This document shows positions 44,969 through 64,000 of a stretch of 64,000 bases of DNA, one piece after another. The stretch's first letter is position 1. Each line of letters starts with the position of its first letter. A program made the position numbers and the translations under genes. This DNA comes from Niveispirillum cyanobacteriorum (GTDB lineage Bacteria; Pseudomonadota; Alphaproteobacteria; Azospirillales; Azospirillaceae), in contig NZ_CP025612.1 in the NCBI RefSeq assembly GCF_002868735.1, positions 310,001-374,000 of the forward strand, given 5' to 3'. The notes under the pieces were generated by a model. The model saw nothing but the letters and a program-made list of their open reading frames with translations. It was not told where the DNA came from and made no database searches.

Positions 44969-46315
44969 ATGCTGCGCGCGTTGCTGGGCTTTTTCGCCAC
45001 GGGGCCTGACCGCCCGGTGACGGCGGACGCGGCGGCGGTCGATGCCGCCTATCGCCGTTACCGTATCCGGGTGATGCTGGCCATCACGCTGGGCTATGGC
45101 TTGATCTATACCTGCCGGCTGGCGCTGGGTGTGGTGAAGAAGCCGCTGATCGATGCGGGTGTATTTTCACCGGCGGAACTGGGCCATATCGGATCGGCCT
45201 TGTTCTACACCTATGCCATCGGCAAGCTGACCAACGGGTTCCTGGCCGATCACGCCAATATCCGCCGCGCGCTGGCCATCACCTTCCTGCTGACGGCGCT
45301 GTGCAACCTGACCATGGGCTTTGTCACCAGCGTCTGGATGGCGGTCCTGGTCTGGGGCCTGAATGGCTGGTTCCAGAGTTTCGGGGCGCCGGGCGGCGTG
45401 GTGGCCATGACGGCCTGGTTTTCAAATCGGGAGCGGGGCCGCGCCTATGGCGTCTGGTCCACGGCCCACTCTATCGGCGAGGGTTTGACCTTCCTGGTCG
45501 TCGGTTCACTGGTCGGCTGGCTGGGCTGGCAGGCCGGGTTCTTCGGGCCGGGGCTGATCGGCATCGCGACCGCCGCCGGTGTCTGGTTCCTGTTGCAGGA
45601 CCGGCCTCAGACGCTGGGCCTGCCGCCCGTCAATGACTGGAAGGGTGACCATTACGGGGAAAAGCCCAAGGCCGATCCGCGTTCCGTCCTGGCGCAGCAG
45701 TTGCACATCCTGAAACTGCCGGCCATCTGGGTGCTGTGCCTAGCCTCGGCCACGACCTATGTCACCCGCTATGCCATCAATTCCTGGGGCGTGCTGTATT
45801 TGCAGGAGGCGCGGGGCTATTCCCTGGCCATGGCGGGCACGCTGCTGATGGTCAGCACGGTAGCCGGCATTGTCGGGGCCATCAGCTTCGGCCTGTTATC
45901 GGACAAGCTGTTCCAGTCGCGCCGCCCGCCGGCCAACCTGCTGTTCGGTGTGCTGGAACTGATCGGCATGCTGCTGATCTTTTTCGGGCCGAACAGCGTG
46001 CCGCTGCTGCTGCTGGGCATGGTGCTGTTTGGGGCCGGCATGACAGGTCTTGTCACCTCGCTGGGTGGGCTGTTCGCCGTCGATATCGCGCCCAAGCGCG
46101 TGGCAGGCGCGGCAATGGGCGTTATCGGCATTTTCAGCTATGTCGGTGCGGCCCTGCAGGAACATGTTTCCGGTATGCTGATCGACCGTGGCATGACCAT
46201 GGTGGACGGGGTCCGGCATTACGATTTCGGCCCGGTGATCTGGTTCTGGATCGCCGCGTCGGTGGTTTCCATGGTTTTGGCGGCGACCCTGTGGCGCACG
46301 CGATTGAGGGACTGA
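44969..46315 (+). CDS. Organophosphate:phosphate antiporter-like MFS transporter (GlpT/UhpT family)
   Basis: A 448-residue inner-membrane protein with 12 likely helices. The first part, GYGLIYTCRLALGVVKKPLIDAGVFSPAELGHIGSALFYTYAIGKLTNGFLAD, is the typical start of the organophosphate:Pi antiporters, whose members import glycerol-3-phosphate or hexose phosphates in exchange for phosphate. The start at 44969 is set by GGGGAGGAG. An inositol monophosphatase-family gene follows six bases after its stop, then a PhoD-type phosphatase, so a sugar- or inositol-phosphate import role is likely. The substrate is inferred from the neighbours; glycerol-3-phosphate cannot be excluded. Confidence 0.82.
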   Translation: MLRALLGFFATGPDRPVTADAAAVDAAYRRYRIRVMLAITLGYGLIYTCRLALGVVKKPLIDAGVFSPAELGHIGSALFYTYAIGKLTNGFLADHANIRRALAITFLLTALCNLTMGFVTSVWMAVLVWGLNGWFQSFGAPGGVVAMTAWFSNRERGRAYGVWSTAHSIGEGLTFLVVGSLVGWLGWQAGFFGPGLIGIATAAGVWFLLQDRPQTLGLPPVNDWKGDHYGEKPKADPRSVLAQQLHILKLPAIWVLCLASATTYVTRYAINSWGVLYLQEARGYSLAMAGTLLMVSTVAGIVGAISFGLLSDKLFQSRRPPANLLFGVLELIGMLLIFFGPNSVPLLLLGMVLFGAGMTGLVTSLGGLFAVDIAPKRVAGAAMGVIGIFSYVGAALQEHVSGMLIDRGMTMVDGVRHYDFGPVIWFWIAASVVSMVLAATLWRTRLRD

Positions 46316-46321
46316 TCCATC

Positions 46322-47140
46322 ATGAATTCCCCATCCCCCGAACTGTCGGCGATGATCGATGCGGCCCAGGCCGCTGGTCACGGGCTTTTGCGCCGCTTCT
46401 CACAACTGTCCGAACTGGTCATCCGCGCCAAAAGCGGACCGGCGGATCTTGTCTCCGTCGCGGATGAGGAGGCGGAGCAGACGGCCCGCACCATCCTGTC
46501 CCGTTTCCGCCCCGATTACGCCTTCCTGGGTGAGGAGGGCGGGCAGGTCGGGGACCGCGACGCCAGCCACAGCTGGATCGTCGATCCGCTGGATGGCACC
46601 ACCAACTTCCTGTTCTCCTGTCCGCTCTGGGGCGTCAATGTTGCCCTGGCGCGCGATGGAGAGGTGGTGGCCGGCGTCACCTACATCCCCGTGATGGAGG
46701 AGATGTTCGTGGCTGAGAAGGGGCGGGGGGCCTGGCTGAACGGTCGGCGCATCCATGTCTCCACCCGCGCCACGCTGGGCGACGCGGTGCTGTCCTGCGG
46801 CATGCCGTTCACGGGCAAGCCGGATCATCCGGTCTTTGCCCGTGAAATGGCGCTGCTATCGGCGGATGTCGCGGGTTTGCGCCGCACAGGGGCCTGCGCG
46901 GTTGACATGGCCTATGTCGCCTGCGGTCGCTGGGACGCCTATTGGGAACGGGCGCTGAATGCCTGGGACATGGCGCCTGGCCTGATCCTGGCGACGGAGG
47001 CCGGTGGCACCGTCAGCAATGTCCGGGGTGACAGGTTGGATCTTCACGGCCAGAATGTCTGCATCACCAATGGCCATATCCACAATGCGCTGGTGGATCG
47101 GCTGAATCAAGCTCTGCACGAAGCACAGAACGAAGGATAA
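46322..47140 (+). CDS. Inositol monophosphatase-family phosphatase
   Basis: A 272-residue cytoplasmic Mg2+-dependent phosphatase. The metal-binding motifs are GEEGG (70-74), WIVDPLDGTTNF (85-96, with Asp88 and Asp91) and AWDMAPG near residue 216, all intact. The family dephosphorylates inositol monophosphates, but also histidinol phosphate and related compounds. Here the gene is six bases downstream of an organophosphate antiporter-like gene and five bases upstream of a PhoD phosphatase gene, within an inositol locus, so release of free myo-inositol from an imported monophosphate is the most economical reading. Confidence 0.9.
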   Translation: MNSPSPELSAMIDAAQAAGHGLLRRFSQLSELVIRAKSGPADLVSVADEEAEQTARTILSRFRPDYAFLGEEGGQVGDRDASHSWIVDPLDGTTNFLFSCPLWGVNVALARDGEVVAGVTYIPVMEEMFVAEKGRGAWLNGRRIHVSTRATLGDAVLSCGMPFTGKPDHPVFAREMALLSADVAGLRRTGACAVDMAYVACGRWDAYWERALNAWDMAPGLILATEAGGTVSNVRGDRLDLHGQNVCITNGHIHNALVDRLNQALHEAQNEG

Positions 47141-62353: not shown

Positions 62354-63156
62354 GCCGGCTGCGTGTCCGCCCGACGGCCCCCGATGCCGATGGCCGCACC
62401 CTGTCGGTGACTCCGGAAAGTGCGGGCTGGGGCCATGTGGGTTTCGCCCTGCACCGGTTGAAACCGGGGCAGAGTGTGTCGGGGCTGGAACCGGACCGGG
62501 AGCTTTGCCTGGTGCTGGTGGCTGGCACGGCGCGCATTGTGGCGGGAGAGGCCGATCTGGGCCTGACCGGCGGGCGCCAAAGCCCGTTCGAGGATGCGGC
62601 CCCCGGTGCCGCCTATATTCCCGCCGGGGTTTCTTACACCGTGACGGCGGACGGTCCCGTCGAACTGGCCATCTGTTCCGCACCTGGCCGCCCCGGTGGG
62701 GAGGCCCGCCTGATCGCGTCCGCCCGCATGGGGCGGGAGGTGCGCGGGCAGGGCACCAATACTCGCCATGTGCGCAATATCCTGCCGGAAGGGGAGCCCG
62801 CCGACAGCTTGCTGGTGGTGGAGGTCGTCACGCCCGGCGGCCACTGGTCCAGCTACCCGCCGCACAAGCATGACACGTCGCGGGAGCAGGAAACCCTGCT
62901 GGAGGAAACTTATTACCACCGTCTCAACCCGCCGCAGGGCTTCGCGTTCCAGCGTGTCTATACCGACGATCGGTCGCTGGATGAGACGGTGTGCGTGGAG
63001 GATGGCGATGTGGTGATGGTACCGCGCGGGTACCATCCGGTCGGCGCCCCCCATGGCTATGATCTTTATTACTTGAATGTGATGGCGGGGCCGGAGCGCA
63101 AGTGGCGTTTCCATAATGACCCAGCCCATGAATGGATCATCACGGGACCGCGCTGA
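62350..63156 (+). CDS. iolB: 5-deoxy-glucuronate isomerase
   Basis: A 268-residue double-cupin enzyme. The second cupin shows the metal-binding WSSYPPHKHDTSREQETLLEETYYHRL, and a late GDVVMVPRGYHPVGAPHGYDLYYLNVMAG, both standard in IolB. It isomerises 5-deoxy-glucuronate to 5-dehydro-2-deoxygluconate, the IolC substrate. The start overlaps the iolE stop by four bases (ATGA), and the gene is followed by mmsA after 34 bases. Length is that of the family. Confidence 0.95.
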   Translation: MSRLRVRPTAPDADGRTLSVTPESAGWGHVGFALHRLKPGQSVSGLEPDRELCLVLVAGTARIVAGEADLGLTGGRQSPFEDAAPGAAYIPAGVSYTVTADGPVELAICSAPGRPGGEARLIASARMGREVRGQGTNTRHVRNILPEGEPADSLLVVEVVTPGGHWSSYPPHKHDTSREQETLLEETYYHRLNPPQGFAFQRVYTDDRSLDETVCVEDGDVVMVPRGYHPVGAPHGYDLYYLNVMAGPERKWRFHNDPAHEWIITGPR

Positions 63157-63190
63157 ACCGCCGTTTCCCGTCAAATCAGGAACATGAACG

Positions 63191-64000
63191 ATGCGCGAGA
63201 TTTCGCATTTCATCGATGGGCAGCGCGTGCCCGGACGGTCGGGCCGTTACGCCGATGTGTTCGATCCCAATTCCGGTCAGGTCCAGGCCCGTGTGGCGCT
63301 GGCCAGTGGCGGTGAACTGGACGCGGCCATCGCCTCTGCCGCCCGCGCACAGCCGGCCTGGGCCGCCATGAACCCGCAGCGCCGGGCCCGCGTGATGTTC
63401 AATTTCAAGCATCTGCTTGAAAAACACATGGACGAGCTGGCGCATCTACTGTCGTCCGAACACGGCAAGGTCATTGCCGACGCCAAGGGCGATATCCAGC
63501 GCGGGCTGGAGGTGATTGAATTTGTCTGCGGCATCCCGCACCTGCTGAAGGGTGATTACACGCAAGGCGCCGGGCCGGGCATCGATGTCTATTCGATGCG
63601 CCAGCCGCTGGGCGTGGTCGCCGGCATCACGCCGTTCAACTTCCCGGCCATGATCCCGCTCTGGATGCTGGGGCCGGCGGTGGCGGCGGGTAATGCCTTC
63701 ATCCTGAAACCGTCGGAACGCGACCCATCGGTGCCGGTGCGGTTGGCCGAACTGCTGATGGAAGCGGGGCTGCCGCCCGGCATCGTCAATGTCGTGCAGG
63801 GCGACAGGCAAGCGGTGGAAGGCATTCTGGATCACCCGACCATCCGCGCCGTCAGCTTTGTCGGGTCCAGCGATATCGCCCAGGCCGTCTATAATCGCGG
63901 CTCGGCCGCCGGCAAGCGCATGCAGTGCATGGGCGGGGCCAAGAACCATGGCATCGTCCTGCCCGACGCAGACTTGGATCAGGCCGTCGCGGATATCATC
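63191..64000 (+). CDS. mmsA: Methylmalonate-semialdehyde dehydrogenase, N-terminal part (cut by window edge)
   Basis: The first 270 residues of a CoA-acylating aldehyde dehydrogenase, with the rest beyond the window. It begins REISHFIDGQRVPGRSGRYADVFDPNSGQVQA, has GVVAGITPFNFPAMIPLWM and FILKPSERDPS, and breaks off before the catalytic Cys. MmsA (IolA) converts malonic semialdehyde to acetyl-CoA and CO2, the last step of inositol catabolism. It is the last visible gene of the iol operon, with an AGGA site before ATG 63191; another ATG at 63184 is out of frame. Confidence 0.92.
   Translation, partial: MREISHFIDGQRVPGRSGRYADVFDPNSGQVQARVALASGGELDAAIASAARAQPAWAAMNPQRRARVMFNFKHLLEKHMDELAHLLSSEHGKVIADAKGDIQRGLEVIEFVCGIPHLLKGDYTQGAGPGIDVYSMRQPLGVVAGITPFNFPAMIPLWMLGPAVAAGNAFILKPSERDPSVPVRLAELLMEAGLPPGIVNVVQGDRQAVEGILDHPTIRAVSFVGSSDIAQAVYNRGSAAGKRMQCMGGAKNHGIVLPDADLDQAVADII

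Follow-up and report, generated by a model that had tools for sequence, protein, structure and literature searches.

The window analyzed here is a 64,000-nucleotide stretch of the Niveispirillum cyanobacteriorum genome (bases 310001–374000 of contig 2, which is 1.25 Mb long; the genome searched is 6.05 Mb in five contigs), and its right-hand end is occupied by a block of genes that opens with a carrier of the major facilitator superfamily (MFS) and closes with genes for inositol catabolism. Gene identities were taken from open frames and from profile-model matches against curated cut-offs (NCBIfam/TIGRFAM, Pfam), and signal starts were read by eye. The first three genes are on the forward strand and encode the carrier (44909–46315), which on its open frame, profile matches, relatives, and predicted fold is of the organophosphate:phosphate antiporter (OPA) type and is a candidate inositol-monophosphate:phosphate antiporter; an inositol monophosphatase family protein (46322–47140; PF00459 over cut-off, with no signal peptide by eye); and a PhoD-like phosphatase (47146–48603; family match, with a twin-arginine-like start, SRRQFL, by eye). 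The triosephosphate isomerase gene tpiA (48623–49378, over the TIGR00419 cut-off) follows on the reverse strand, and then, on the forward strand, a TonB-dependent receptor of the TonB-Xanth-Caul type (50018–52582, over the TIGR01782 cut-off) and an AppA-type histidine acid phosphatase (52639–53931), a putative phytase with RHGIRPP and GHDTN motifs and a secretion-signal-like start by eye. Two iolG genes lie on the reverse strand, one for inositol 2-dehydrogenase (54495–55475; 428.9 bits against an IolG cut-off of 355) and a second (55492–56532) that at 348.6 bits is slightly below that cut-off.

The remaining genes are all on the forward strand, and consist of an IolR-like RpiR-family regulator (56627–57547, family matches), iolC fused to a DUF2090 aldolase domain (57679–59604; 762 bits against a cut-off of 600), iolD (59601–61442), iolE (61439–62353), and iolB (62350–63156), the last three above their equivalog cut-offs, and mmsA (63191–64000, continuing to 64693; subfamily model, 654 against 448.5), which is cut by the window end. 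The mmsA gene ends 693 bases past the window, and 63 bases later, on the same strand, starts a beta-propeller phytase (64757–66106 in window numbering; PF02333, 177 bits), which has a lipoprotein-like start by eye and 3-phytases as its closest solved relatives. The classical iol pathway is complete, the models for IolG, E, D, B, C, and MmsA all being exceeded, with the second iolG slightly under. A preliminary description of this DNA had named the receptor, the AppA-type phosphatase, the MFS protein, the monophosphatase, PhoD, two iolG, iolCDEB, mmsA, and tpiA, and each of these is an open frame with a family match where it was placed, except that the MFS gene starts at 44909, and the position formerly given, 44969, corresponds to an ATG in the same frame.

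The family matches do not fix the exact substrates of the AppA-type, MFS, monophosphatase, and PhoD proteins, because scores fall under the NCBIfam equivalog cut-offs. The AppA-type protein has the RHGxRxP and HD motifs and is homologous to solved phytases, and scores 236.6 bits against 585 for the AppA equivalog. The monophosphatase has SuhB/IMPase as its closest solved relatives and is below the IMPase and HisN equivalog cut-offs, and the carrier is under the cut-offs for GlpT, UhpT, UhpC, and PgtP, its best scores being 250.8 against 564 (UhpC) and 244.8 against 407.75 (PgtP subfamily). There are five PF00459 proteins in the genome, the locus monophosphatase among them, and it is 71% identical to the carrier-linked protein of Luteimonas (L068) and 45% identical to its nearest own paralogue; being closer to the former, it belongs with the carrier. 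The clustering of the block, judged by gene-for-gene retention in two sister genomes and by a link between the MFS carrier and iol genes in other phyla, is not chance.

By sequence, the solved structures closest to the carrier are those of GlpT (179 bits) and human SLC37A4. Its AlphaFold model, made with an alignment of 27 clade sequences, has a mean predicted local distance difference test score of 88.5, and Foldseek with this model returns GlpT first (E 2.7e-15), then G6PT structures and a galactonate symporter; in the fold alignment the carrier is 28% identical to GlpT. In GlpT, R45, R269, K80, and H165 have phosphate-binding roles. The R45 and R269 positions are arginine in 82/82 clade rows, the K80 position is lysine in 79 and arginine in 3 of the 82, and the H165 position is histidine in 81, so that the likeness to the OPA antiporters GlpT, UhpT, and SLC37A4 (G6PT) lies in the fold and in the phosphate-binding arginine pair and the histidine and lysine positions. 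The preliminary description, which had called the MFS protein organophosphate antiporter-like, is borne out in this respect. What sets the carrier apart from those three is its tie to iol genes and inositol-type enzymes, its own clade, and a set of replaced positions: E299 is mostly Thr, Y362 mostly Thr, Asn, or Ser, N162 mostly Ser, and W138 Ala or Ser. The changes at the bulky or acidic positions W138, E299, and Y362 are such as a larger, hydroxyl-rich substrate might need. The carrier belongs to a distinct, as yet unnamed clade of OPA antiporters, which on the tree is separate from GlpT, UhpT, UhpC, and the Vibrio type, though branches are long and the outgroup order is unsure. A simply PgtP-like identity was considered and rejected, as the 43% identical Vibrio and Plesiomonas proteins adjoin a pyruvate kinase gene but are not members of the clade.

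Three carrier queries (from the window, a sister genome, and Klebsiella) were run against 84,980 species genomes. Among the 288 relatives detected, the nearest 80 were analyzed with their flanks; these 80 loci are the nearest and are related to each other, so their counts are not independent, and many of them end at contig edges. Among named records, strain AAP38 has an identical carrier (100%), and the next closest come from Niveispirillum genomes, at 97% and, over part of the sequence, 100%. Looking for the gene set in other genomes, as the preliminary description had proposed, reveals an inositol gene beside the carrier in 71 of the 80 loci, in a loose count that takes in iolG-like genes and mmsA, and iolC, iolD, or iolE in 44. 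Thermotoga-type enzymes occur near the carrier in 19 (a count that takes in alcohol-dehydrogenase-like IolM), phytase in 32, PhoD in 31, and a TonB receptor of the window's type in 23. In Luteimonas, Pseudoxanthomonas, Arenimonas, and Rhodanobacter, where the locus is long enough, iolG is accompanied by the run rpiR-iolC-D-E-B-mmsA-carrier-monophosphatase, mostly with PhoD as well, and Caulobacter and four Phenylobacterium loci have mmsA-carrier-monophosphatase. A beta-propeller phytase is found close to the carrier in Sphingomonas, Hephaestia, Steroidobacter, Povalibacter, and Pseudokordiimonas, several of which also have a TonB receptor there. Many loci from Acidobacteriota, KSB1, Neomarinimicrobiota, Ignavibacteria, and Verrucomicrobia have the carrier together with iolG, and some of them also Thermotoga-type enzymes, for which one representative each scores 310 bits versus 245 (IolN-like), 313 versus 300 (IolO-like), and 194, which is under 450 (IolM-like). 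Eight carrier loci also contain a sugar-type ATP-binding cassette (ABC) binding protein and permease (the permease named by eye), which suggests a division of labor in which the ABC set would take free inositol and the carrier inositol phosphate.

Three further features of these loci may be recorded. Near the carrier in many Lysobacteraceae, Caulobacter, and Phenylobacterium loci (L067–L121, 22 to 28 loci per gene cluster), there is a second, smaller TonB-type protein with a PepSY protein and two-component genes (the response regulator identified by eye), which may form a sensor of phosphate or metal-phytate. The loci from Phenylobacterium sp. SCN 69-14 (L073) and Rhodanobacter sp. 67-28 (L074) have identical carrier sequences and the same gene layout, and one of these bins is probably contaminated. 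Some KSB1-type loci (L128, L129, L132, L136) have tandem carrier copies, two each.

Within a GTDB sample of the own family (82 genomes, own included; iolD at E up to 1e-100, carrier at E up to 1e-60), iolD is present in 27 genomes and the carrier in 4, all of them in the own genus, which is represented by 11 genomes, own included; an OPA search of a 385-genome sample of the class at E up to 1e-70 returned the own copy only. From the carrier to mmsA the block is syntenic in the two sister genomes (L030, L031), with proteins 83–99.6% identical and mmsA cut at the stretch end. The fourth carrier genome is fragmented: its carrier gene is broken across the ends of two contigs, one of which also has the monophosphatase, PhoD, and tpiA, and at E up to 1e-100 no iolD was found in this genome. 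The family has 24 iol loci without a carrier, and 16 of them (those of G012, G022, G023, G034, G060, G063, G077, and G078 being left out) served as controls, which were tested by tblastn at a score of at least 70 bits; within the stretch taken, there was no phytase and no TM0415-type kinase in any of the 16, and a monophosphatase in one (L040), where it lies alongside an ABC binding protein of the PhnS-like kind. Another genus of the family, whose iol cluster is the most similar one (iolD 73–75% identical), has an APC-type permease next to iolG (by eye, L034, L035); an inositol permease of the APC type would in itself be unusual.

The partner enzyme at the carrier loci is of two kinds that do not occur together. 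Among the 80 loci, the dephosphorylating-type partner is a monophosphatase in 40, a homologue of the Thermotoga kinase TM0415 in 33, both in none, and neither in 7; the chance of zero overlap under random dealing is 6e-16, with the loci treated as independent though they are related. As the next gene after the carrier (84 copies), the kinase homologue is found in 33 and the monophosphatase in 29, the kinase position being exemplified by L106 (10376–11272), with 32 further loci. Two of the seven loci with neither partner (L091 and L129) break off within a carrier copy, where the contig ends, and in a third, L114, mmsA is the next gene and the locus then ends. Changes needed on the carrier tree are two for the monophosphatase label, six for the kinase label, and five for "neither" (with long branches and an unsure outgroup order), and from these few changes it follows that at least one partner was replaced while the carrier stayed.

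The kinase homologue is a PfkB protein, and the best solved relatives of two representatives are TM0415 entries and a close PfkB entry, at 146–164 bits. The available text on TM0415 describes it as a pyrophosphate (PPi)-dependent inositol kinase that forms inositol 1-phosphate (Ins(1)P), and reports a Km for inositol of 12 mM, a value that made its authors consider whether the enzyme might have a different acceptor (PMC5931981). Of the three basic PPi-binding residues of TM0415, R229 and R232 (R-x-GRGD) are present in 31 of 32 neighboring kinase homologues, the remaining one being cut short. In these 31, the third, K171, is kept throughout (26 by pattern, 5 by eye); at the positions of the two large hydrophobic residues of TM0415, F221 is Phe in 28 and Trp in 3, and M266 is Met in 22, Leu in 5, Ile in 2, and Val in 2. 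Since the one carrier is accompanied by either a phosphatase or a PPi-dependent kinase, each standing in for the other, the best account is that both act on imported inositol monophosphate, and we infer that both would free inositol from it, with the kinase running backwards. No statement of this reverse direction was seen in the PubMed Central (PMC) literature consulted on the enzyme.

Regulatory sites connect parts of the block. In the available text on Caulobacter, the IolR site is GGAA-N6-TTCC, and the regulator is of the RpiR family (PMC2597717); this Caulobacter site model was used here, with matches compared with shuffled sequence. Nine exact matches occur in the window against a shuffle mean of 0.95, and two of them are in the intergenic DNA of the block, both on the forward strand: one between tpiA and the TonB receptor gene (49614–49627), which has a counterpart at the same place in L065 and L066, and one before iolC (57576–57589). 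A further IolR-like site with one mismatch precedes the carrier gene (44882–44895, forward strand). Exact or one-mismatch sites in the five promoter stretches of the block number 8, against a shuffle mean of 0.57 and a maximum of 4 in 2000 shuffles. Over the 80 carrier loci, 26 of 46 exact sites fall in upstream windows, which make up 5.3% of the bases, and an exact site lies before the carrier in 11 loci.

The preliminary description had regarded import of inositol as its monophosphate by an antiporter as a new step, on the grounds that there was no inositol importer in the window. Absence from the window is too weak an argument alone, and a whole-genome and cross-genome check was needed; the genome-wide part of it supports the absence, and the claim to novelty has to be narrowed, as the idea that inositol is taken up in phosphorylated form has a precedent, reported for the ABC system of Thermotoga. 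Profile searches were made of the whole genome, the strongest matches were put in context, and the contexts were named by eye from translations. Among the sugar porter, sugar-type ABC, and SSF matches, the strongest of them in context, no dedicated inositol importer was recognized. Of 32 matches to the sugar porter model PF00083, the single one over 300 bits lies in a xylose-type cluster. The 19 matches to Peripla_BP_4 are headed by one on C3 in an arabinose-type cluster, one on C1 that stands alone, and one beside the xylose-type cluster, and the eight BPD_transp_2 matches form four pairs of arabinose, nucleoside, branched-amino-acid, and urea type. For the five SSF carriers, four places were examined, and there was no inositol gene among the neighbors; one of sugar type, adjacent to a LacI regulator (C1:1236803), might in principle transport inositol.

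Taken together, we consider it probable that the locus is a catabolic module for phytate and inositol phosphates, with entry of the monophosphate through the OPA-type antiporter and with the partner enzyme swapped in other lineages. Phytate or lower inositol phosphates would cross the outer membrane and lose phosphates in the periplasm, where two phytase-type enzymes, AppA-type and beta-propeller, would be at hand. Inositol monophosphate would then come in through the carrier, with phosphate going out by the same carrier, and the cytosolic-looking monophosphatase would release inositol inside the cell. The IolG, E, D, B, and C enzymes with MmsA would convert inositol to dihydroxyacetone phosphate (DHAP), CO2, and acetyl-CoA, and TpiA would hand the DHAP to glycolysis. 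In other lineages the PPi-dependent inositol kinase homologue would replace the monophosphatase, and probably convert inositol phosphate and Pi to inositol and PPi. Import of inositol as the monophosphate by the antiporter is a prediction that comparison among genomes supports well. For the broader proposal, that a phylum-spanning OPA subfamily imports inositol monophosphate in exchange for Pi, paired either with a monophosphatase, which would waste the ester bond, or with a reversed PPi-dependent kinase, which would keep it as pyrophosphate, we find the case evenly balanced.

A phytate route of this general form was put forward in the preliminary description, and its core is supported, through comparison, by the OPA fold and residues, by the conserved link of the carrier with iol genes and a partner enzyme, and by the lack of a recognizable dedicated inositol importer in the genome, with the proviso that the isomer may differ and that the cargo of the TonB receptor and the role of PhoD in the route are guesses. 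AppA-type phytases end at inositol 2-phosphate (Ins(2)P), and typical monophosphatases act poorly on Ins(2)P, sparing the axial 2-phosphate. Several observations weigh against the proposed module, and the first is this mismatch of source and isomer, in that an AppA-type product that is a poor monophosphatase substrate and the Ins(1)P formed by TM0415 do not match neatly; either the local monophosphatase is unusual, or the local phytases have another end product, or PhoD or another source gives Ins(1)P or Ins(3)P. Phytase was not seen in 48 of the 80 carrier loci as fetched (many loci end early), and 9 of the 80 have no inositol gene. Four loci (L119, L122, L133, L141) are without either partner enzyme as far as read, and three of these (L119, L122, L141) are also without an inositol or phytase gene. 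Most exact IolR-type matches in the window (seven of nine) fall outside the block, which makes a single GGAA-N6-TTCC match weak evidence. There are sphingomonads in which a TonB receptor and an AppA-type phosphatase are neighbors and the annotation of the surrounding 17 kb includes no iol gene, so that receptor and phytase may serve phosphate supply first. Finally, the general sugar importers of the genome (the sugar porter, the sugar-type ABC set, and the SSF carriers) might carry free inositol.

Some of these points bear on the possibility, which we regard as unlikely though worth serious thought, that there is no single phytate route, and that the phytase and receptor serve phosphorus supply, the iol genes use inositol from elsewhere, and the carrier takes Ins(1)P derived from phosphoinositides. 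The receptor and AppA-type pairs without iol genes, the action of TM0415 at the 1-position, and the 48 loci in which phytase was not seen would all be in keeping with such a separation, but the IolR-type sites are common to the receptor and iolC promoters, the whole block is retained in the two sister genomes, and the beta-propeller phytase recurs in carrier loci of unrelated lineages. Rather improbable, in our estimation, is that the carrier has switched its substrate to free inositol and that the monophosphatase serves otherwise, for example in recycling inositol phosphates made by the cell. A tie to iol genes is what would be expected of an inositol permease, no dedicated one was recognized in the genome, and among four iol clusters examined from the closest other genus, the two with listed genes have a different permease (the APC type, by eye) next to iolG. 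Against this, the carrier retains the two phosphate-binding arginines as well as the Lys80 and His165 positions, 73 of 80 carrier loci have a monophosphatase or a TM0415 homologue as compared with 1 of 16 carrier-less iol loci, and the eight loci with a sugar-type ABC set already have the usual solution for free inositol. There is little to recommend a carrier for another phosphate ester (glycerol phosphate, glycerophosphoinositol, or hexose phosphates) that adjoins iol genes because plant phosphorus compounds co-occur, for while the substrates of the closest solved relatives are glycerol 3-phosphate and glucose 6-phosphate, 31 of the 80 loci have PhoD-like genes, and the Vibrio and Plesiomonas relatives adjoin a pyruvate kinase gene, the partner enzymes are inositol-type, the carrier follows mmsA inside the iol gene run in many loci, and its clade is distinct from GlpT, UhpT, UhpC, and the Vibrio type.

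Among the nearest described relatives of the proposed inositol-phosphate module is the Caulobacter crescentus myo-inositol module (Boutte 2008, PMC2597717), with which, as far as the available text goes, it has in common the iol enzymes, the RpiR-type IolR, and the GGAA-N6-TTCC sites. The difference lies in entry, since Caulobacter takes up inositol by the IbpA-IatA-IatP ABC importer (PMC2597717), and here no such importer was recognized and a carrier, a monophosphatase, and phytases accompany the iol genes. The Thermotoga maritima pathway (IolG/M/N/O, TM0415) is related in another way, in that TM0415-like kinases and IolN/IolO-type enzymes occur in the distant carrier loci, whereas Thermotoga has an ABC importer rather than an antiporter, and the window has the classical IolE/D/B/C route with a monophosphatase. 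The Thermotoga importer, InoEFGK, reportedly prefers inositol phosphate. In the accessible text of one source, InoEFGK is listed as the inositol importer (PMC3750489).

Two further groups appear, from gene content, to be separate lineages that repeat the same logic. K. pneumoniae (two records) and K. aerogenes (one) have the gene run LacI regulator-monophosphatase-OPA carrier-histidine phosphatase (L054, L055, L062), in which the last three lie side by side as in the window, but the carrier is 40% identical and outside the clade, the regulator is of the LacI type, and no iol gene is annotated within 13 kb. One K. pneumoniae isolate was obtained with phytate as the only carbon source, and the available text of that study names no transporter (PMC11219571). 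In Roseomonas gilardii, the neighbors of iolC-rpiR-iolG are genes for an ABC importer of the PhnS2/PhnU2 kind, a monophosphatase, and a histidine phosphatase, and two Klebsiella plasmids have the order porin-histidine phosphatase-ABC importer-monophosphatase. In the 385-genome class sample, the Roseomonas-type binding protein is present in 28 genomes, iolD in 56, and both in 22 (Fisher p 1.3e-15, the genomes not being independent). The binding-protein loci from 20 of the 28 genomes include a monophosphatase in 13 (one weak, 77 bits) and an iol gene in 7 (one weak, 60 bits), and no phytase within the stretch taken. Such PhnS2/PhnU2-like importers with a monophosphatase, in places also with a histidine phosphatase, were seen at L064 (2726–9242), at L061 (5200–12951), and in L151–L170, and are possibly a second kind of inositol-phosphate importer.

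Among PMC titles and abstract openings, a scope that leaves out most subscription papers and all preprints, none was about an OPA carrier for bacterial inositol phosphates, and the available parts of PMC12482443 and PMC9414882 contain nothing on one. New within the PMC literature searched are thus the OPA-type carrier for inositol phosphate, its spread, its tie to phytases and iol genes, and the exchange of monophosphatase and kinase. According to the accessible text of a survey of iol clusters (PMC9430895), transporters unlike known inositol carriers were left out of cluster lengths, and this may be why the carrier has gone unnoticed so far. Plants and soils store organic phosphorus mainly as phytate, and bacterial studies of this compound center on phosphate release; an inositol-phosphate carrier, if real, would join phosphorus release to carbon use in one step. 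It could explain how iol-positive bacteria without a recognizable inositol permease feed, the database names GlpT, UhpC, and PgtP would need correction for such carriers, and the PPi-dependent inositol kinases, for which a different acceptor has been considered, would gain a catabolic task, a role that is directly testable.

The stretch upstream of the block (35438–44791) contains genes for aconitase-type large and small subunits, a PEP-mutase/ICL-type lyase, an IclR regulator, a PF00144 beta-lactamase-family protein, an FAD monooxygenase, and an arylmalonate-decarboxylase-like protein, and is perhaps a ring-cleavage or dimethylmalate-type catabolic cluster.

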